This document shows positions 35,206 through 44,710 of a stretch of DNA of 64,000 bases, one piece after another. Under the pieces are notes generated by a model that was not told the origin of the DNA, did not search any database, and saw nothing but the letters and a program-made list of their open reading frames with translations. The number at the start of each line of letters is the position of its first letter. Positions within the stretch are counted from its first letter, which is position 1. The position numbers and the translations under genes are program-made. The stretch is from positions 1-64,000 of the forward strand of contig WGLV01000010.1 in the NCBI GenBank assembly GCA_016125385.1, read 5' to 3'. Origin of the DNA: a bacterium. Its GTDB lineage: Bacteria > Hinthialibacterota > Hinthialibacteria > Hinthialibacterales > Hinthialibacteraceae.

Positions 35206-35964
35206 TTAAAATGAGGGGATTACACCGAGCAATTTCATCGACATGGCGATCACGGTCACGATCAGCGCCCACCGAATCCAGACTTCACCGCGATCAAGCG
35301 CCAGACTTCCACCGATCCACCCCCCCAATCCATTGCCAAGCGACAGGATCAAGGCGGGGAACCAGTCGACTTCACCCTTCCAGATAAAGACCCCCAGAGC
35401 AAACGTGGTGTAAATCGCCACGATCAGCGACTTGGCGGCGGCGGTTTCGATCAGATTCAGCCCCGCCAGAAAAACAAACGCCGCGATCAAAAAGTATCCA
35501 GCCCCAGCCTGGAAGATTCCACCATACAATCCGATCAGAAAAAACGCGGCGCCGAGGGATATCTTGCGGGCGAGCGTCATGGAAACCGATGAGGAGCCCT
35601 TTGGCTTTGGATTCCAGACGATGAACGCGACAACGACCAGCATGATGATGGCGAACAAAGTTTTGAAGAGCCGATCGGGCAGATCGACCGCCGCAAGCGC
35701 ACCAATCACCGACCCCAGGCAGGCGGGCAGAGACAGCCACAGGCATAACGTCCAGTGACTGACCCCGCCCTTGCGAAAACGAACCACAGCCGCGACGCAT
35801 TGAATCCAGATCGCGACACGGTTGGTTCCATTCGCCAGAGATGAGGGCAGGCCCAGAAACATCAGGACGGGGAGCGTCAGCAACGAACCGCCTCCGGCGA
35901 GCGTGTTGATTACGCCAGCGATGAAGCCAACGACGAAGACAAGCGGGATATACTGATATTCCAT
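35206..35964 (-). CDS. TSUP-family permease (TauE/SafE-like)
   Basis: A 252-residue membrane protein with about eight helices and the duplicated TSUP motifs: GFIAGVINTLAGGGSLLTLP near the start and GLYGGIFQAGAGYFLI in the second half. The ATG at 35964 was chosen because it starts directly at helix 1 (MEYQYIPLVFVVGFIAG) with AAGGAAACC upstream. The family exports or imports sulfite, sulfoacetate, taurine-derived or other organosulfur anions. There is no partner gene to fix the substrate; it is divergent from the M24-like gene. A shorter TSUP protein occurs at 55794. Confidence 0.92.
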   Translation of the reverse strand: MEYQYIPLVFVVGFIAGVINTLAGGGSLLTLPVLMFLGLPSSLANGTNRVAIWIQCVAAVVRFRKGGVSHWTLCLWLSLPACLGSVIGALAAVDLPDRLFKTLFAIIMLVVVAFIVWNPKPKGSSSVSMTLARKISLGAAFFLIGLYGGIFQAGAGYFLIAAFVFLAGLNLIETAAAKSLIVAIYTTFALGVFIWKGEVDWFPALILSLGNGLGGWIGGSLALDRGEVWIRWALIVTVIAMSMKLLGVIPSF

Positions 35965-36071
35965 GCCGTTCAGGTTTCCTTCAGACAAACGTTGGCGCAC
36001 CGGTTGAGTTGGACTATGATTTTTCCGGCTGATCCGATCACCGCAGCGTTCAACTATTCACAGGAGCAAGC

Positions 36072-37169
36072 ATGAATCTTTTCGCTCATCGCGAAGAAGA
36101 ATTCCAGATCAAGCTGGACCGGCTGAGAGGCGTCATGCAGGCGCATAGCGCGGATAACCTGCTCATCACCGAAGCGCATCATTTTTCATGGCTGACCGGC
36201 GGGGGAGAGAATTTCGTCTTTACCGCACAATCGGGCGGCGCGGCGCCCCTGCTGGTTACGCACGATCGAGTGTACCTCGCCGCGAACACGATTGAAGCGA
36301 CGCGGCTGTTTCCTGAAGAACTTGAAGATCTGCCGATCGAAGACGCGCGCCACGCCTGGCCACTGCCCCCGGATGAAGTAAACAAGCACTATCAGCGTCT
36401 CAGCCCGGGCGTTCTGGTAAAAGACACCGATCTGGAAACAGAGATAAGGAACCTCCATACGCCTTTCACTCCAGATGAAATCGAGCGTTACCGCTGGCTG
36501 GGCCGCATGGCGGAGGAGTCGATCAGGACGGCATGCAAAGCGGCACGAAAAGGAATGACGGAATATCAGGTCGCGGCATTACTCGCGAAAGAATGCTTCG
36601 ACCGGGAGATATGGCCGGTGTTGATTCTGGCGGCCTCGGATGACCGGTTAATGAATTACCGGCATCCGCTACCGACGGAAAAGCCTATCGAGAATGAGTT
36701 CATGCTGGTGTTATGCGCACGGCGTTACGGGCTTATCGCCAACGTGTCGCGGATCGTCTGCTTCAACGGAGTCAGCGATACGCTGCGAGCCAAACATCAG
36801 GCGGTCTGCGCAATCGACGCGGCGCTGATTCTGGGCTCGACGCCCGGTGCGGCGTACGGCGGCGTTTTGCGGGAAGCGATCAGGCTATATCAGGAATGTG
36901 GTTTTGAACATGAATGGGAACTGCACCATCAGGGCGGGCCTACAGGGTATATCGGGCGGTATTTCAAAGCGACGCCCACAACACGAGAGATTGTGAAGGA
37001 TCGTTCAGCCGTCGCATGGAATCCATCAATTTCCGGCACGAAAAGCGAAGACACGGTCCTGATCACGGAAAACGGCCCCGAAGTGCTTACCGCGGCGCGA
37101 GAGTGGCCCATGATCGAAGCGGATTACCGGGGGCGCACTATTCAGCGGTGCGATTTGTATACGCCATGA
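36072..37169 (+). CDS. M24-family (Xaa-Pro peptidase-like) protein with non-canonical metal site
   Basis: A 365-residue protein with a creatinase-type N-domain and a pita-bread C-domain. The usual dinuclear metal ligands are Asp, Asp, His, Glu, Glu. Here the two-Asp strand reads FMLVLCARRYGLIANVSR, where canonical sequences have an acidic residue in each half and this one has Asn or neutral residues. The first Glu (normally in a P-G-x-Y-like context) is replaced in AWNPSISGTKSED. The His region HHQGGPTGY and the final Glu of SEDTVLIT are retained. It is therefore probably not a standard metallopeptidase; a repurposed amidohydrolase or binding role is possible. Its stop overlaps the DUF4911-like gene by four bases. 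GGAGCAAGC precedes the ATG. Confidence 0.85.
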   Translation: MNLFAHREEEFQIKLDRLRGVMQAHSADNLLITEAHHFSWLTGGGENFVFTAQSGGAAPLLVTHDRVYLAANTIEATRLFPEELEDLPIEDARHAWPLPPDEVNKHYQRLSPGVLVKDTDLETEIRNLHTPFTPDEIERYRWLGRMAEESIRTACKAARKGMTEYQVAALLAKECFDREIWPVLILAASDDRLMNYRHPLPTEKPIENEFMLVLCARRYGLIANVSRIVCFNGVSDTLRAKHQAVCAIDAALILGSTPGAAYGGVLREAIRLYQECGFEHEWELHHQGGPTGYIGRYFKATPTTREIVKDRSAVAWNPSISGTKSEDTVLITENGPEVLTAAREWPMIEADYRGRTIQRCDLYTP

Positions 37170-37465
37170 GCGAATCATTCGAACGGCCCAAGCCGCAAGA
37201 TAATCTGATCATCCCCGGACGGATTCCTCCGTTCGAGATCGGCTTCATTAACGCCGTGCTGGACGATCATGAGGGAATTTGCGTGGTCAGGACGGAAGAC
37301 GCGGTCGAGGGGCGTATGGAGTTCTGGGTCGCCCCCGACCTGCTTGATGAGTTCATGCGCTTCGTCGAATTTATCAGGGAAGAATACGATATTCCATTCG
37401 AGCTGTACGATCCGATTCCTCAAACGACTGAAATTACGGACTCACCGGACCGGCGTCAGAGGTAG
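37166..37465 (+). CDS. DUF4911-like small protein
   Basis: A 99-residue cytoplasmic protein that starts within the ATGA overlap with the M24-like gene, so it is translationally coupled to it. The core, IPPFEIGFINAVLDDHEGIC through WVAPDLLDEFMRFVEFI, resembles the DUF4911 pattern of a small alpha/beta domain with a V-R-T-x-D strand. No catalytic residues are evident. Its last 32 bp overlap the end of the histidine kinase gene on the opposite strand. The family call is from memory of the pattern and is moderate; the gene itself is well supported by coupling. Confidence 0.68.
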   Translation: MSESFERPKPQDNLIIPGRIPPFEIGFINAVLDDHEGICVVRTEDAVEGRMEFWVAPDLLDEFMRFVEFIREEYDIPFELYDPIPQTTEITDSPDRRQR

Positions 37466-38663
37466 CATAAGGGAGCGTGAAATAAAATGTCGCCCCATGA
37501 CCATAATCGCTGATGATTCCCAACCTTCCGTTGTGGCCTTCCACGATATTCCGGCAGATCGCCAGCCCCAACCCCGTGCTTTTCTCGCCTTCGGTCGCTC
37601 GAACCAAGGATTTTCGGAAGGGCTTAAACACTTCTTTTGATTCATTTTGTGGTATGCCTTGCCCATGATCAACGACGGATATTTTCACCTGGTTTTCTTC
37701 TTTTGCCAGATACACCTCGATCGATGAGCCACGCTGCGAAAATTTTATCGCGTTGGAAATCAGATTGTTTATGACCTGTTCAATCTTGAGGGCATCAAAC
37801 TCCAATTCGATCGGCTCATCAGGCATGCTAACTTTGATTTCAATCTCTTTAGCCTGTGCAAGAACGGCGTTCATGTCGACAATATTTTTTAGAAAATCGA
37901 CAATGTCGCAGTATTCATTCTTCAGATTGAGGTTTCCTGATTCTATTTTGGATATATCGAGAATATCTTCTACGAGTTCATGCATAAACCGGCTGGTTTT
38001 TTTGATGTTGGTTAAAAAGCGCAAATGGCGTTCAGATAATTGAGGAGTGAGCTCATTCAACAAAAATTCGCTGAACGCCATGATCACGCCGAGCGGATTT
38101 CGAAGATCATGGGCGACCATGCCTATAAACTGGTTTTTCTGGTCGTGAAGCAGTTGCAACTCATTGTTTTTTTTTGTGAGTTCACGTTGAAGCGAAACCA
38201 GATCATTATTCATGCTGTACATGTGTTCCATATGTGAAGCATCATCGCCTTGCGATTTTTCGATCCGGCTCTGCATTTTTCTCAGTTCTCTGATTACATT
38301 TACATGGTCGTTATTAATTTTCATCAACTCTTCGAGCAAGATGAGTGACTGAGAAAGCGATAGAGCTCCAACCACAAGATAATGATCCTGTACATGAGCA
38401 CCGGAAAAATGAAGAGTCACAATCTGGTTATGGAACAGAAGATTCATATCCCAACCAAACGTGGCCCCCTCCGATTTGATTTCCTGCATGAATAATAAAG
38501 ATTTTTTGATGCTTTCCCGGTCGAGTTGAGTGGAGAAGGGAAGCCCCTGGATGGTGCTTTTGAATAATTGAAAATCATCGCGGAGAACAGTGGAAATCCG
38601 GCCGACTTCATCACATAAAAACGCGACGCCTTGTTCCATTTGACTCATGGTTGAATCAATCAT
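37434..38663 (-). CDS. Soluble histidine kinase coupled to the cobalamin-binding sensor
   Basis: A 409-residue kinase without transmembrane helices. The start at 38663 overlaps the upstream stop (TAATG), indicating translational coupling. Residues 1-110 form an unassigned alpha/beta input region. A long coiled coil (110-175) leads to the HisKA domain with His185 in MVAHDLRNP. The HATPase module has the N box (QVINNLISNAIKFS), G1 (VVDHGQGIP), F box region (FKPFRKS) and G2 (STGLGLAICRNIVEGHNG). It should autophosphorylate in the cytoplasm in response to the upstream protein. No response regulator is adjacent; the orphan regulator at 2651 is a remote candidate. Codon use is visibly AT-richer than neighbouring genes. 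Confidence 0.92.
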   Translation of the reverse strand: MIDSTMSQMEQGVAFLCDEVGRISTVLRDDFQLFKSTIQGLPFSTQLDRESIKKSLLFMQEIKSEGATFGWDMNLLFHNQIVTLHFSGAHVQDHYLVVGALSLSQSLILLEELMKINNDHVNVIRELRKMQSRIEKSQGDDASHMEHMYSMNNDLVSLQRELTKKNNELQLLHDQKNQFIGMVAHDLRNPLGVIMAFSEFLLNELTPQLSERHLRFLTNIKKTSRFMHELVEDILDISKIESGNLNLKNEYCDIVDFLKNIVDMNAVLAQAKEIEIKVSMPDEPIELEFDALKIEQVINNLISNAIKFSQRGSSIEVYLAKEENQVKISVVDHGQGIPQNESKEVFKPFRKSLVRATEGEKSTGLGLAICRNIVEGHNGRLGIISDYGHGATFYFTLPYATSDAGPVSP

Positions 38664-39712
38664 TAGAAATGAAAACGGGATCGCGCCGCTTCGATTGCAT
38701 CCTGAGCGTTTGAAGCGTACAAATCCGCGCCGATCTCCTTCCATAAATTGGGGATCTGATTAAAAGGCTGTCCTCCGACCATGACACAAACATCTTTCGA
38801 TTCAGGATTGCTTCGCAGCATGCGAATGATGGATATCACCCGTCGAATATGAAGGGAAATCGTACAGGAAATCGCCAGCAGATCAGTTTTATTTTCGATC
38901 ACCGAATCGATAATCGATTCTGCTGGCGTGTTCGAACCTAAGTACCAGGTATTCCAACCCTCCATTTCAAAAAAATCGGCGACCATGCGAACGCCGATCT
39001 CATGCACCTCTCCTCCAACGCAGACCGCCACAAGGTTTAATCCGTTTTTGTTGGTCGTAAAAATATACGGGTAAAGTTGCGAAATCGCCAATTGAGTCAC
39101 CGCGGTACAGTAATGCTCTTTCGCAACCGTAATTTTGTTTTCCTGCCAAAGCCGTCCGATTTTGTACAAGGCTTCCTGCAAGACATGGAGATAGATGTCT
39201 TTTACGGACATACCTCCCTTAACTTGCTTCAGAATACCGTCAATCGCTTTTTGCTTTTCCCCAGCCAGTAAATGATCCACATACTGTCTTCTGATTTCGT
39301 CGAATTTATTTACCGTTCTAATTTTTTGTGGAGAACAGGATTGGATTCCCATTTCGGACAAGCCTTCTTCGATGCAGGACAGCGCAAAAAGATTGACATC
39401 TTCCGCATCGGTACCATCCTGATTGAACTCGTCCTGCATCGCAATCAGGATTGGTTTGATGAAATCCTTCAACTCCGGTTGGATCGTCAGGTTTAACCAG
39501 ATCACAAAATTAGCGAACACCCGCCGGTTGTCAGATGCAACCGCATCTGCGAGATGATCGACCAATTCAAACGCGAGTTTCTGGATTTGCGGCTGGAAAT
39601 CGTCGATGGCGGCGATAGTATTGCTTTGATCACCGATTTTTTCCACAAGTCGGTGCGCCAGCTGGAAACGGTTTTCGTTCAGAAATGTGATAAAATTGGG
39701 GGATTCAATCAT
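38663..39712 (-). CDS. Cobalamin-binding sensor protein with CarH-type W-x9-EH motif
   Basis: A 349-residue soluble protein. Residues 1-125 are helical and resemble the RsbR N-terminal (globin-like/RsbRD) type. Residues 135-220 form the methionine-synthase-like four-helix cap, containing Trp189 and Glu199-His200, an exact W-x9-EH spacing. That motif marks the AdoCbl-capping domain of CarH-type photoreceptors. Residues 225-345 form the Rossmann B12-binding domain with E235-x-His237-x-x-Gly240, the base-off His ligand, plus the SCTISLH and VMVGGQPFN segments. There is no MerR DNA-binding domain. The kinase starts within its stop codon, so the pair is a split sensor-kinase. Likely input is adenosylcobalamin, with or without light; photosensitivity is inference. 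Confidence 0.92.
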   Translation of the reverse strand: MIESPNFITFLNENRFQLAHRLVEKIGDQSNTIAAIDDFQPQIQKLAFELVDHLADAVASDNRRVFANFVIWLNLTIQPELKDFIKPILIAMQDEFNQDGTDAEDVNLFALSCIEEGLSEMGIQSCSPQKIRTVNKFDEIRRQYVDHLLAGEKQKAIDGILKQVKGGMSVKDIYLHVLQEALYKIGRLWQENKITVAKEHYCTAVTQLAISQLYPYIFTTNKNGLNLVAVCVGGEVHEIGVRMVADFFEMEGWNTWYLGSNTPAESIIDSVIENKTDLLAISCTISLHIRRVISIIRMLRSNPESKDVCVMVGGQPFNQIPNLWKEIGADLYASNAQDAIEAARSRFHF

Positions 39713-39754
39713 GTTTCTTATAAATAAAGTTGGCTTTTCTGGATTAAAGAAGTT

Positions 39755-39783
39755 AGTATAATACGTTACCCTTTCCTCGGCAA
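39755..39783 (-). promoter_or_regulatory. Sigma-70-like promoter of the cobalamin sensor-kinase operon
   Basis: On the minus strand TTGCCG (39778-39783) and TATACT (39755-39760) are separated by exactly 17 bases, in an AT-rich background. The predicted start site is about 35 bases before the ATG at 39712. Two mismatches in total from the consensus hexamers (one or two per box) make this the clearest sigma-70 promoter in the window. Confidence 0.6.
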
Positions 39784-39930
39784 TAGTGTTTCATATTATC
39801 GCAATTATATCGATTATTGAAAACGAACTTTGTTTATTATACAAAGATACATGCTTGTAATAGTGCATAAAAAATGGCTTGATCATCATTATGCCGCCTT
39901 GCTTTACTAAAGCAGAATGGAGAAATTCCT

Positions 39931-40299
39931 ATGCTGTGGGAACTGTACCAGATGCATCAGATCGGTCAGGCGCAATCGGCCGCGAACAATTCGAGCAGCC
40001 AAGCGCTGAAGTCGATTTCCATCGTGGAAGGGATGGAAAACCGCATCAATAAGCTGATTCTGATCAATATGGCGATGTGGGCGCTGATTCAAGAGATATC
40101 AGACCTGAAAGAAGAAGACCTGATTGAAAAAATCAAGGAAATCGACCTGAGCGACGGCAAGCTGGACGGGCGGGTTCGGGTGGATATGAAGCAATGCCCC
40201 AAATGCAACCGCGTCATGTCGAAAAAGCACGCGCGCTGCCTCTATTGCGGTTATGAAGGGGCGGGAGAATGGGGAGCGTTTCAGGATGTCCTTGCGTAA
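39931..40299 (+). CDS. Coiled-coil protein with C-terminal zinc ribbon
   Basis: A 122-residue protein of unknown function. An N-terminal Met/Gln/Ser/Asn-rich segment (MLWELYQMHQIGQAQSAANN) precedes a long helix (residues 30-75) and an acidic/basic heptad-like stretch. The C-terminus holds a C-x2-C-x10-C-x2-C zinc ribbon. GGAGAAATTCC precedes the ATG. The layout suggests a scaffold or regulatory protein that oligomerises through the helix and uses the ribbon for structure or nucleic acid contact. It is divergent from the cobalamin sensor operon across about 220 bp. No family recognised. Confidence 0.72.
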   Translation: MLWELYQMHQIGQAQSAANNSSSQALKSISIVEGMENRINKLILINMAMWALIQEISDLKEEDLIEKIKEIDLSDGKLDGRVRVDMKQCPKCNRVMSKKHARCLYCGYEGAGEWGAFQDVLA

Positions 40300-40334
40300 T
40301 ACGCTTTCCCGGATAAAAATACCATTTTGAGGGC

Positions 40335-40363
40335 TTGACCCGGCGTAGTACGGCGGAAATGCT
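40335..40363 (+). promoter_or_regulatory. Possible peroxiredoxin promoter with Rrf2/IscR-like half sites
   Basis: TTGACC (40335-40340) is followed at 17 bases by a weak -10 (AATGCT). Between them lies CGGCGTAGTACGGCGG, which loosely resembles the TTGAC...TAGTCCGG sites seen for Rrf2-family iron-sulfur or redox regulators. A second TTGCAC-N17-AATTAT pair lies further downstream, near 40374-40402. Tentative. Confidence 0.3.
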
Positions 40364-40484
40364 TTTGCACAAACATACTAAATAGGAAATTATCTTAAAA
40401 AGTAATCCTGGATTTGGAACCCCAGCCCGGAAACGGGATTTGAGCATCTACACAGGAACCATTTGATTTTAAAGGAGAAAGAAT

Positions 40485-41012
40485 ATGAGCGTTCAGATTG
40501 GTATGCCCGCTCCCGACTTTACGGTGAAGGCGCTTGTCAACAAAGATTTTAAAGACCTGTCGCTGAGCAGCTACAAAGGGAAATGGGTCTGCCTGTTTTT
40601 CTATCCGCTGGACTTCACCTTCGTCTGCCCGACGGAAATCGTTGAATTCAGCCAGCGCAGCGGCGAGTTTAAAGACCGCAACTGTGAAGTGATCGGCGGC
40701 AGCACGGACAGCGAATTTTCGCACCTGGGCTGGTGCAACTCTCATCCCGACCTGAAGGACCTCAAGATTCCCCTGATCGCGGACTACAAGAAGGAAATCT
40801 CGCGTGAATACGGGATTCTGAAGCACGATATGGGCGTTGCGTTTCGCGGGACTTTTCTGATCGATCCCGACGGCAATGTCCGCTGGATCTGCATCAACGA
40901 TCTGCCGGTCGGACGAAACGTGGACGAAGTGTTGCGCGTGCTGGATGCGCTTCAAACGGGCGAACTGACGCCGTGCCAATGGAAAAAGGGCGAAAAAGTT
41001 CTGAAGCCGTAA
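40485..41012 (+). CDS. 2-Cys peroxiredoxin (AhpC/TSA family)
   Basis: A 175-residue cytoplasmic peroxidase. The peroxidatic Cys48 lies in DFTFVCPTE, the Pro-Thr-x-Cys-type active site of AhpC/Prx1. The resolving Cys164 lies in ELTPCQWKKG near the C-terminus, the expected VCPA-like position. It reduces hydrogen peroxide and organic hydroperoxides, regenerated by thioredoxin or an AhpF-type reductase not present here. AAGGAG precedes the ATG and a long hairpin follows the stop, so it is a single-gene unit. The Cys164 context is slightly unusual for the family but position and length are normal. Confidence 0.95.
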   Translation: MSVQIGMPAPDFTVKALVNKDFKDLSLSSYKGKWVCLFFYPLDFTFVCPTEIVEFSQRSGEFKDRNCEVIGGSTDSEFSHLGWCNSHPDLKDLKIPLIADYKKEISREYGILKHDMGVAFRGTFLIDPDGNVRWICINDLPVGRNVDEVLRVLDALQTGELTPCQWKKGEKVLKP

Positions 41013-41031
41013 CGAATGTGACAGGTACTGT

Positions 41032-41060
41032 AACGGGAAGGGGGCCAACCCCTTCCCGTT
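41032..41060 (+). terminator. Stem-loop terminator after the peroxiredoxin gene
   Basis: AACGGGAAGGGG pairs perfectly with CCCCTTCCCGTT around GCCAA. The following ATGCTATTTA is only moderately T-rich, so termination strength is uncertain. Confidence 0.65.
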
Positions 41061-41180
41061 ATGCTATTTAAGAAAAATTTCAAATATTCGCTTGCGCTTT
41101 TGAAATATTGCGGGAAGCCGTGCTATACTTAGTTTCGATGGACTTGAATCTAAACGGGCGAACCACCTTTTTATAAATCC

Positions 41181-42101
41181 ATGACTGACGATTATTCTTT
41201 TGCCGCGGAGCAAATGAAGGAGATCATCATTAATGATTATCTCCGTAAAAATCCGGATATTAAGCGCCATGAAATCGTAACCAAGACGGTTAACGGCCGA
41301 GTTATCGTCGAAACGATCACTAATACTTTCAACAAATTATCGGAACGAAACCGCCCCAAAAACGCTCTCTCCAACAAAGAAAAGAAGCTGCTCAAACATC
41401 TCGCCGACGGGGGCGACAGCCGTTACGCCGCCTCGCTGGAATCGATCAGCACGTCGCGGAAATACATCGACTGGCTGGCTGGCTCAACCTTTACGGGATT
41501 TTCAGAAAGCGACAAAGAAGAAAATACGCAATTCGTTGAAAAGCGCGAGGTTGACGCAGGCCGCCGCGCTCAGGAGTTGCTATACGTCCGCAAGAAGTTC
41601 ACGGATCAGATGTCGAGCACAACGAAGCCCTCCCGCTCATTGATCCAGACGCTGATGATGGAATATATCAGCGCGGTGATGAGGCAGTTAAAAGTGCAGG
41701 CGCAGGTGTTCGGTAAAGAGATCGAGTTGGGCAACCTGTTTTCAGATAACGTTAAAAGGTTTTTGCGAGATAATTTTGATAAGTTGGAAAAAGCCAGCGA
41801 AAAGATCATCGCCACAGTCGGTAAAGCGATCAAAATCCTCCAGAAAGGGGCTCCGAAGCCCCTCGACGTAAAAGGCAAAGAGGATCACAAGAAGGTTCAG
41901 GCTCTGCTTGATGACCAGAACAAAGACCTGACCGTGCGGCGTGAAGAATACGATATGATCATTCAGTTAATCGCCTATCTGGAAAAACTGATCGGCGACA
42001 TGGGTAAAGTAGCCACAGAGCCCGACGCACCCGCCCCCAAAGTAGACAACTCATCCCGGCGAATGGCGTTTCACTCGAAAAAAGGCCGCGACCGCAGGTA
42101 A
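41181..42101 (+). CDS. Highly charged helical protein of unknown function
   Basis: A 306-residue cytoplasmic protein without Cys, signal or membrane segment. It is predicted almost entirely helical from its Lys/Glu/Asp/Leu pattern, with a region from 185 to 300 that could form a coiled coil (LEKASEKIIATVGKAIKILQ). Two polar N-terminal segments (IKRHEIVTKTVNGR, LSNKEKKLLKHLADGG) look globular. The C-terminus is basic. I do not recognise the family. The length, even codon use and position in an otherwise empty plus-strand stretch support it as real. It is convergent with the pectate lyase gene. Confidence 0.68.
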   Translation: MTDDYSFAAEQMKEIIINDYLRKNPDIKRHEIVTKTVNGRVIVETITNTFNKLSERNRPKNALSNKEKKLLKHLADGGDSRYAASLESISTSRKYIDWLAGSTFTGFSESDKEENTQFVEKREVDAGRRAQELLYVRKKFTDQMSSTTKPSRSLIQTLMMEYISAVMRQLKVQAQVFGKEIELGNLFSDNVKRFLRDNFDKLEKASEKIIATVGKAIKILQKGAPKPLDVKGKEDHKKVQALLDDQNKDLTVRREEYDMIIQLIAYLEKLIGDMGKVATEPDAPAPKVDNSSRRMAFHSKKGRDRR

Positions 42102-42171
42102 CCCCGACAAACCCTTTCCCCCTCCTCGAGAACCTTACCAATTCAGTAATAAGACAAATTAGATAAGGAAG

Positions 42172-43233
42172 TTATTTCAAAGAAGCGGCCCACTCTGGGT
42201 AACGTTCAAGCAGGCTTTGAGGTCGTCCGGTATACCAGGAATATCCATTTCGCCGTTCATGCTCGATTTCACTCAAGTTGTATTTGATCAGGCCGTCGCG
42301 CCCACAAAAGATCGGGCGATTTGAACCGATCTCGTAAAACCGAGCCCAGAGCGGTGGCGCGGAGGAATCTTCCACAACAACACGGTCATGCCCCTCTGGC
42401 AGATCTGAGCCTTTGATATCCACCACGCGAATCCCTTCGATTTTTGACTTTTCAAACCATTTCACCGCCTGGCGAATTGATTTAACAACTTCGGGCGATG
42501 GGGATTCGATTCCCATCAGGAATTCGACGATCTTCTCACTTTCAGAACCGGATAAGGAGATTTTCTCATACGATCGCGCGGGGGCGGGCTGTAGCGTCTT
42601 TTCATCATGCTGGGCGCACCAGACGGTGAGCTCGCCATCGACTGTCACCTGGCATTTCAAAATACATGCGACGCCTTTTTCAATCGCGCGGCGGGATTGG
42701 TTGCGCAATTCAGGCGCGATGAACTCAAAGGGTGGTTTGGCCTCTTCCACGTCGCGAAGGAGATCGAGAACACCGATCATGGCGTCGTCATTAAAAGTGA
42801 TGTGAGTGTAATAGCCTTTTTTATAGGGAAACTGGGGCCATCCGCCGTTGTCATATTGAATATCCAGCAGAAAACGCAAGCCTTTTTCCACCGCATCATG
42901 GAATCGGGATTCACCGGTCGCCTGATAGACGCTGGCGAGGAATCGGATCGGGCGGTACGTCGCGCCATTGTCGATCGTGCAATCGGTACGATCGGACTTT
43001 TGTCCGATCAGGCGATCACGCTCCTCATTTGTGAGTGGTTTGGCGAAATCGGTGTTCTTGGGCCAGCCGCCCGCGTCACGTTGATAAAGAAGCAGGTTAT
43101 CCGCAACGCCGATGGCTTCGGAAGATGAGTACCAGGAGTTGTTTTGCTTCAGGGATTCTTTCCATGTAATGGCCTGTGACGTCAAAGGGAGATTCAGGAA
43201 CAATACGATCAATCCAAGAGCGGCGGGTCTCAT
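42172..43233 (-). CDS. Secreted pectate lyase, PL10 family
   Basis: A 353-residue exported lyase. GGAGG precedes the ATG at 43233 and the signal peptide ends near TSQA. The (alpha/alpha)3 toroid motifs of PL10/PelA enzymes are present: LLYQRDAGGWPKN, CTIDNGATYRPIRFL, NGGWPQFPY, HITFNDDAMIGV, WCAQHDEKTLQPAPARSYE and PLWARFYEIGSNRPIFCGRDG. The Asp pair, Arg and Lys-type catalytic and calcium-binding residues of the family fall in these segments. It cleaves polygalacturonate by beta-elimination outside the cell. There is no pectin uptake or KdgF-type gene beside it, so it is an isolated locus rather than a utilisation cluster. Confidence 0.94.
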   Translation of the reverse strand: MRPAALGLIVLFLNLPLTSQAITWKESLKQNNSWYSSSEAIGVADNLLLYQRDAGGWPKNTDFAKPLTNEERDRLIGQKSDRTDCTIDNGATYRPIRFLASVYQATGESRFHDAVEKGLRFLLDIQYDNGGWPQFPYKKGYYTHITFNDDAMIGVLDLLRDVEEAKPPFEFIAPELRNQSRRAIEKGVACILKCQVTVDGELTVWCAQHDEKTLQPAPARSYEKISLSGSESEKIVEFLMGIESPSPEVVKSIRQAVKWFEKSKIEGIRVVDIKGSDLPEGHDRVVVEDSSAPPLWARFYEIGSNRPIFCGRDGLIKYNLSEIEHERRNGYSWYTGRPQSLLERYPEWAASLK

Positions 43234-43362
43234 CGCGGAATCCTCCAAATACGGCGAAGTTCAGAGCAATGAAAGGCTCATTTATCAAAGCACAGTGTAA
43301 AGGGTTTGGATAGATTGAAGGGGAAGGGGAACAATCAAGAGGGACATCGGGAAATAACTGTG

Positions 43363-43447
43363 TGCCGGAGGGGGGACTCGAACCCCCACGTCCCGGAGGA
43401 CACTAGGTCCTGAACCTAGCGCGTCTACCAAATTCCACCACTCCGGC
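43363..43447 (-). tRNA. tRNA-Leu (anticodon CAG)
   Basis: A class II tRNA of 85 nt. The acceptor stem is GCCGGAG with CTCCGGC and discriminator A. The anticodon stem CTAGG/CCTAG encloses TTCAGGA with anticodon CAG, reading CUG. A long variable arm (TGTCCTCCGGGACG region) and the T arm GGGGG-TTCGAGT-CCCCC confirm the leucine class. CCA is not encoded. Confidence 0.96.
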
Positions 43448-43645
43448 AACAGGGAACATCCGTCTGAATTAACGGTAATAATGTACACGATAAGGCGGAC
43501 TGGTAAAGTCTTGCCGACGAGGAAAATCCATCTTCGGGGAGAGTTTTTTCGTTGTCGGGGAAAGTGTGCATCGCAGGGGATAAATTCTTCGCGCCAGACG
43601 ACGGGTATACTATGAAATGTAGCTTTACGAAGAGGAAATAAACCG

Positions 43646-44710
43646 ATGGCGAACACCGAAAACATGGAACTCATCCGAAGTTCGCTTTCACGCTTTACGC
43701 GTGAAGGCGCGTTGTACGAAACACTGGAAGGCGAAAAGATCCGCTGTTTCGCCTGCGGACACCGTTGCGTGATTCCTGAAGGCCGGCCGGGCGTGTGCCG
43801 GGTACGGTATAACGAAGACGGGCGGCTGATGGTTCCATTCGGCTATACCGCGGGCGTGCAATGCGATCCGATCGAAAAGAAGCCGTTCTTTCACGCCATG
43901 CCGGGCACGAACGCGTTGAGTTTCGGCATGCTGGGATGCGACCTGCATTGCGCCTATTGTCAAAACTGGGTGACGTCGCAAACGCTGCGCGACGCGGACG
44001 CTTCGGGCCGGATGGTTCCCATGACGGCGGAAGAAATCGTCGATCTCGCCGTACGCACCGGCGCCAGCACAGTGACCAGCACCTATAACGAACCGCTGAT
44101 CACGGCGGAATGGTCGATGGAAGTTTTCAGGCTGGCGCGCGAGCGCGGGTTGAAAACCTCTTATGTATCGAACGGCAACGGGACGCCGGAAGTCATCGAC
44201 TACATTGAGCCGTGGACGGATTTGTACAAGGTCGATCTGAAGAGTTTTCAGGATAAAAACTACCGGAAACTGGGCGGGACGCTGCAAGCCGTGCTGGATA
44301 CGATTCAGCGATTGCACGAGCGAGGTTTCTGGGTGGAGATCGTTACGCTGGTGATACCATCATTTAACGACGGCGACGAGGAACTAGGCAAGATCGCCCG
44401 ATTCATCGCATCGGTCGATCCGGCGATTCCATGGCACGTCACCGCATTTCATGAAGATTACAAAATGAGCGGTATGGGCGCCACGCAGGCGCGGACCCTG
44501 ATACGCGCGGCTGAGCGGGGCAGGGAAGCCGGGCTGAAATTCGTCTACCTTGGCAACCTGCCGGGACGCGTGGAGGGATGGGAAAACACGAACTGTCACG
44601 CATGTGATGCGATGCTGATTGAGCGCACCGGTTTTCACGTGCACCAGAATCGCCTGACAAAAGGGCGATGCCCCGATTGCGGCGAGGCGATTCCCGGCGT
44701 ATGGACCTGA
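43646..44710 (+). CDS. amrS: AmmeMemoRadiSam-system radical SAM enzyme
   Basis: A 354-residue radical SAM protein. The iron-sulfur cluster cysteines are Cys98, Cys102 and Cys105 in GMLGCDLHCAYCQNW. Upstream lies the CFACGHRCVIPEGRPGVC cysteine-rich segment and downstream the family motifs STYNEPLI and VSNGNGTPE. A C-terminal zinc-like site (NCHACDAMLIER, RCPDCGEAIPG) completes the AmrS architecture. Family members occur with AMMECR1- and MEMO-like proteins and are thought to modify a peptide or protein; neither partner adjoins here. GAGGAAATAA precedes the ATG. The next gene begins 95 bp later, after a CGGGGTT/AACCCCG palindrome. Confidence 0.93.
   Translation: MANTENMELIRSSLSRFTREGALYETLEGEKIRCFACGHRCVIPEGRPGVCRVRYNEDGRLMVPFGYTAGVQCDPIEKKPFFHAMPGTNALSFGMLGCDLHCAYCQNWVTSQTLRDADASGRMVPMTAEEIVDLAVRTGASTVTSTYNEPLITAEWSMEVFRLARERGLKTSYVSNGNGTPEVIDYIEPWTDLYKVDLKSFQDKNYRKLGGTLQAVLDTIQRLHERGFWVEIVTLVIPSFNDGDEELGKIARFIASVDPAIPWHVTAFHEDYKMSGMGATQARTLIRAAERGREAGLKFVYLGNLPGRVEGWENTNCHACDAMLIERTGFHVHQNRLTKGRCPDCGEAIPGVWT

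Follow-up and report, generated by a model that had tools for sequence, protein, structure and literature searches.

What signal is read by a locus in which a predicted B12-binding sensor is followed by a soluble histidine kinase, and through what output would that signal be passed on? The locus lies on the minus strand of the window, that is, the whole 64-kb stretch of DNA that was analysed. The upstream gene (38663..39712, minus strand) encodes a sensor of 349 residues composed of an N-terminal globin, an AdoCbl cap helix bundle and a Rossmann B12 domain, and the downstream gene (37434..38663, minus strand) encodes a soluble PAS histidine kinase of 409 residues. Both ORFs lie where a preliminary description of this DNA had placed them and, as it had observed, the kinase begins inside the sensor stop codon at TAATG (38661..38665, minus strand), the stop and the ATG having one base in common. 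Its further view, that the kinase is soluble and closely coupled to the sensor within one operon, was also supported. Equally, no response regulator adjoins the pair, as the flanking genes from 35206 to 44710 contain no receiver domain by Pfam. These neighbours include TauE, an M24 peptidase, DUF4911, a zinc-ribbon protein and AhpC (Pfam), and no methyltransferase was found among the window neighbours near the pair (Pfam). A search of the 64-kb window returned no cobalamin riboswitch, and a promoter scan gave sites that did not exceed the number in shuffled sequence. A protein of 306 residues encoded at 41181-42101 has no significant Pfam match.

The B12 module of the sensor consists of a B12-binding_2 cap bundle (residues 140-213; 39074..39295, minus strand; Pfam E 1.6e-14) and a Rossmann B12-binding domain (residues 226-341; 38690..39037, minus strand; Pfam E 1.6e-20), and a profile search of this region, which the preliminary description had proposed as a check on its cobalamin reading, matched Pfam B12-binding_2 at residues 140-212 and B12-binding at residues 226-340. 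The cap carries GRLW (residues 186-189; 39146-39157, minus strand) as its GxxW motif and EH (residues 199-200; 39113-39118, minus strand), while the Rossmann domain carries GEVH237 (residues 234-237; 39002-39013, minus strand) as a GxxH motif and GSNTP (residues 259-263; 38924-38938, minus strand) as a GxxxP motif. The light-responsive cobalamin-binding motif set of SignatureFinder (GxxW, EH, GxxH and GxxxP) is thus complete, and the exact W189-x9-E199-H200 spacing and the base-off site His237 in E-V-H-E-I-G, both claimed earlier, are present in the sequence. SignatureFinder, the source of this signature, was tried on new photoreceptors, and the tested proteins with the full signature were photoactive (PMC11796333). 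W-xn-EH occurs in all 80 related loci, compared with 4 of 29 B12 proteins in a comparison set from other genomes, mostly of the methyl-carrier and MetH types; since the search peptides used to collect relatives covered W189 and residues 246-253, conservation at these positions is partly selected. E199, H200 and H237 lie outside the search peptides and are invariant across the sensor family.

Sequence searches against the PDB placed the photocobilins first (8J2W/8J2X at 87.5 bits, and 8J2Y), followed by CtMerR (8JBS, 68 bits), with methionine synthase at ~31 bits and CarH at ~25 bits. For both photocobilins and CtMerR a response to light has been established by experiment. The CarH-type AdoCbl site that had been proposed for the sensor is supported, but CarH is not the closest kin. 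The AlphaFold2 model of the sensor (pLDDT 90) superposes on 8J2W (B12 module) at 1.7 A and on 8JBS at 2.5 A, and CtMerR is among the structures closest to it in a Foldseek search, which aligns structures in sequence order. CarH/LitR (5C8D) and CtMerR have the same cap-plus-Rossmann AdoCbl site, whereas the window sensor has no MerR DNA-binding domain (no MerR match in Pfam, in agreement with the preliminary description) and its proposed target is a kinase instead of an operator. We rejected the identity of a CarH/LitR repressor on this absence and on the NCBIfam CarH model, which gave 43 bits against a cut-off of 400. The best NCBIfam score came from an MtbC-type corrinoid model (71.8 bits, cut-off 350), models of this type scoring above CarH and all NCBIfam scores falling far under cut-off.

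The kinase has strong Pfam matches to HisKA (37935..38141, minus strand), with His185 as phospho-acceptor, and to HATPase_c (37464..37796, minus strand), in which the N, G1, F and G2 boxes are intact; the residues expected of a HisKA-type kinase (H185, N300, N304, D332, G334, G336, F346, G364 and G366) are invariant. The H-box reads HDLRN, a sequence that fits kinase as well as phosphatase activity. Ahead of these domains lie a PAS-fold domain (residues 12-100; 38364..38630, minus strand), delimited by AlphaFold2 secondary structure and by stand-alone homologues, and a signalling coiled coil (residues 121-174; 38142..38303, minus strand) with the conserved pattern NN-L---QREL-KKN-EL. AlphaFold2 models the N-domain as a PAS fold and shows no membrane segment, and none of the Pfam PAS models recognises this domain. 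Soluble PAS-type kinases such as the YF1-type LOV kinase (4GCZ) and HK853 share the PAS fold, coiled coil, HisKA, HATPase_c and all boxes, but the window kinase differs from them in having a separately encoded B12 sensor as its input and no adjacent response regulator.

To ask whether sensor and kinase belong together is to ask how often they are found together. Among 80 related loci, which come from a wide range of bacterial phyla as well as from Lokiarchaeota, Bathyarchaeota and methanogens, 72 have a histidine kinase ORF downstream on the same strand that starts at most 500 bases from the sensor end, so that a pairing previously taken as unusual is a common, conserved cassette. The kinase usually overlaps or abuts the sensor; 49 of the 72 match the window kinase with more than 200 bits, 30 of these 49 having a start codon at the 4-base overlap position. 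Given this wide conservation, a shared sensor-kinase pathway is likely. The divergence of the B12 module correlates with that of the kinase core or the PAS domain (Spearman 0.53-0.54). No sensor-kinase fusion was seen among the 80 loci, where apparent negative gaps reflect over-extended starts. The PAS kinase of L082 is present and was missed by the search, L088 stops at a contig edge, and no kinase was found at loci L065 and L094.

At four loci (L047, L051, L055 and L089), the downstream gene encodes a short protein that lacks a kinase domain. Comparison showed those of L055 (6681-7175) and L089 (6920-7441) to be stand-alone homologues of the kinase PAS-coil, the former stopping at the point where HisKA would begin; by eye, the short proteins of L047 and L051 resemble them. 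Because the PAS-coil is thereby the common denominator of the partner across loci, PAS and coil are the probable sensor-docking region of the kinase, and physical contact between the two proteins is proposed from operon conservation. At several loci a second kinase with receiver domains follows closely after the pair (L037 8120-10180, L032 8622-10658, L031 9214-10944) and is possibly a phosphorelay partner. At L042 (6120-7941; family assigned by Pfam for this locus only), L073 (3011-4836) and L089 (7940-9771), the cassette is closely followed by KaiC-like and KaiB-like genes, and single KaiC or KaiB members also occur near L090, L095, L096 and L108.

The sensor was present in 1 of 14 genomes of the window's phylum, namely the source genome. 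Its relatives are scattered over phyla and intermixed in the sensor tree, which suggests spread by horizontal transfer; as most deep forks are weak and the window copy is unplaced on a long branch (1.6), we name no donor lineage.

The preliminary description had called the N-terminus RsbR-like, and here the family profiles led elsewhere. No RsbR-type globin or STAS domain was matched in the window protein at E 1 or in 56 family members at E 0.1, whereas Pfam Phycobilisome was matched in 36 of 56 full-length members (best E 4e-10) and whole-family or globin-only profiles match allophycocyanins, phycocyanins, smURFP and the photocobilin globin. The globin of RsbR, a stressosome protein, is remotely akin to the sensor globin and served as an outgroup in PMC10151467. 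By its domains, the sensor family is photocobilin-like, with the globin preceding rather than following the B12 module. A conserved Asp of the phycobiliproteins has its counterpart in the family, where it is kept in 54 of 55 aligned relatives, L060 being the sole departure. About a dozen sensors without a fused globin still have the kinase, and at three loci a small separate gene for a stand-alone globin-like protein lies near such a pair (L046 5420-5860, L077 7889-8344, L086 2432-2902); the three fall into one cluster, and that of L046 matches the family globin profile. Judged from these gene arrangements, the B12 module is the constant input of the family and the globin an option. At L081 (5525-6603) the sensor is frameshifted between globin and B12 module, as a pseudogene or through a sequence error.

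A third gene may bear on the pigment of this globin. Beside the sensor start of 25 of the 80 loci, mostly just upstream and on the same strand, we found a small ABM-fold gene (L031 5676-5975, L037 5473-5820, L047 5554-5853, L072 5535-5834 and some 20 further loci); it is divergent at L033, some 500 bases off at L081, and overlaps an over-extended sensor start at L066 and L071. Most of the 80 loci are without it. It accompanies globin-containing sensors (25 of 68) and none of the 12 sensors without a fused globin (Fisher p 0.014, a rough value as the loci are related). For three ABM proteins the top NCBIfam matches were HmuQ and IsdG-type heme-degrading enzymes, all under cut-off. IsdG has a catalytic Asn near its N-terminus, and an Asn of this type is not obvious in the ABM proteins. 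Of the 15 relatives' genomes searched for a canonical heme oxygenase, 1 had it, and 14 of the 17 relatives' genomes searched have no ABM copy elsewhere. The HmuQ-like protein is a plausible source of bilin.

On balance, we lean towards the reading that the window sensor is an AdoCbl photosensor, probably with no second chromophore, that acts in trans on the PAS histidine kinase. Without light, AdoCbl would be bound base-off via His237, its adenosyl group lying next to Trp189 and Glu199-His200, and the sensor would form a head-to-tail dimer like that of photocobilins and CarH; by analogy, this dimer would hold the PAS-coil in one signalling state. Light would then break the Co-C bond, upon which the adenosyl group leaves, the cap helix shifts, the dimer loosens and, by analogy, the PAS-coil is released; altered docking on the PAS and coiled coil would switch autophosphorylation at His185 (or phosphatase activity), with phosphate passed to a response regulator encoded elsewhere. 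The precedent comes from photocobilins, in which the Glu-His helix shifts and the dimer comes apart on photolysis of AdoCbl, a fused cyclase is activated more than 10-fold by light and a stand-alone protein is able to act on a partner (PMC10979010). Most relatives would respond to a broader range of colours through a bilin-binding globin at the N-terminus, while the window copy, its antenna apparently lost, would be a blue/green AdoCbl sensor. SasPcob without biliverdin remained monomeric (PMC11796333), and for this reason the dimer switch may not operate in a copy that lacks bilin. We infer that AdoCbl is bound, that light is the signal and that the two proteins dock, as well as the direction of kinase control; the sign of the light response is not readable from sequence.

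The main rival of the light reading is that cobalamin itself is what the pair monitors. The adenosyl pocket would then report to the kinase how much of the cofactor is present or which form it takes (AdoCbl as opposed to hydroxocobalamin or methylcobalamin), or the effect of oxygen and redox conditions on it. Many relatives come, by their record titles, from dark or anoxic habitats (sediment, sludge, cave) and some are anaerobes, so the physiological signal may be something other than light; in addition, the signature reports the adenosyl pocket only, and the source genome makes AdoCbl, as it has a PduO-type cobalamin adenosyltransferase. On the other hand, the photoactivity of the tested full-signature proteins (PMC11796333) speaks for light, and a bilin-type globin in most relatives with a heme-degrading gene beside 25 of them suggests a pigment and hence light. 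We consider cobalamin-state sensing rather unlikely, yet the explanation to be weighed most seriously against light.

If the sensor is an AdoCbl photosensor, does the window copy still have a second chromophore? Its degenerate phycobiliprotein/photoglobin-type domain (residues 1-125; 39338..39712, minus strand; identified through family profiles) has Lys45 (39578-39580, minus strand) at the family position of the bilin-contacting Asp and lacks the YGxxGRxK stretch of the family. In SasPcob, biliverdin is held by Asp270, and a His at this position in AbDPcob is blamed for weak biliverdin binding (PMC10979010). On average, the globin of the window copy shares 16% identity with the family, whose members share 31% with one another; in the B12 module (50% versus 54%) and the kinase core (45% versus 46%) the identity of the window copy is normal. 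Against the family globin profile, it scores 16.6 bits, compared to 73-79 for two other divergent members and 31 for L060. The fusion of an AdoCbl domain to a phycobiliprotein-like globin that characterizes photocobilins is thus clear in the family and weak in the window copy, where the biliverdin-holding Asp is missing. Neither a PF01126 heme oxygenase nor an HmuQ-like relative was found in the source genome (95.8% complete; for HmuQ, a single-sequence search with no positive control). Tandem SQS_PSY genes are present in the source genome; as such pairs are usual in squalene synthesis, we do not take them as evidence of carotenoids.

From Lys45, the diverged globin, the lack of heme oxygenase and HmuQ-like genes and the presence of the adenosyltransferase, we infer that the window copy is derived, seeming to have lost its bilin antenna and kept AdoCbl, and the optional nature of the globin in the family supports a copy that functions without bilin. 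Biliverdin binding by this copy is predicted to be negative. That the N-terminal domain still binds bilin or another ligand, as a two-chromophore photocobilin that responds to red light too, is improbable on the same substitutions, identity values and missing pigment genes, even though AlphaFold2 predicts the globin fold with good confidence and AbDPcob binds some biliverdin despite His for Asp (PMC10979010). Finally, that the sensor carries methyl groups as a corrinoid protein of C1 metabolism (MtbC/MtaC/MetH type) with an unrelated kinase as neighbour, as the same two Pfam domains and the 72 bits of the MtbC model might indicate, is largely refuted and hardly credible given that all NCBIfam scores fall far short, most sampled proteins of that type lack W-xn-EH, no methyltransferase is nearby and kinase adjacency is conserved.

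Photocobilins and photoglobin-B12 fusions are already known. The photoglobin-B12 proteins of Schneider et al. 2022 (cited in PMC10979010 and PMC10151467) are said to couple a globin to a B12 domain and to be linked to signal transduction. The AdoCbl photosensor that we propose shares with the photocobilins SasPcob and AbDPcob (8J2W, 8J2X, 8J2Y; PMC10979010) an AdoCbl module with W-xn-EH, a lower-ligand His and a phycobiliprotein-type globin, but the globin of photocobilins is C-terminal and that of the window sensor N-terminal, its output is a separate kinase gene and the bilin Asp is lost. Kinases are not mentioned in the main text of PMC10979010 or PMC11796333, and the 2022 photoglobin survey may list such neighbours. 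As a tentative proposal, which is possible though short of probable, the family may form a widespread two-, sometimes three-gene photoreceptor class in which a photocobilin with permuted domains controls a PAS histidine kinase in trans and receives bilin from an adjacent HmuQ-like enzyme. The window copy would then be a natural variant with a single chromophore, in which the AdoCbl switch outlived the loss of bilin. B12 photoreceptors have so far mainly been repressors (CarH) or fused and stand-alone photocobilins; the conserved sensor-plus-kinase pair, if true, would connect two-component signalling in many phyla, archaea included, to the photochemistry of AdoCbl and would offer modular green-light kinases for optogenetics, while the role of the bilin globin could be tested by setting side by side members of one family that keep bilin, have lost it or lack the globin.
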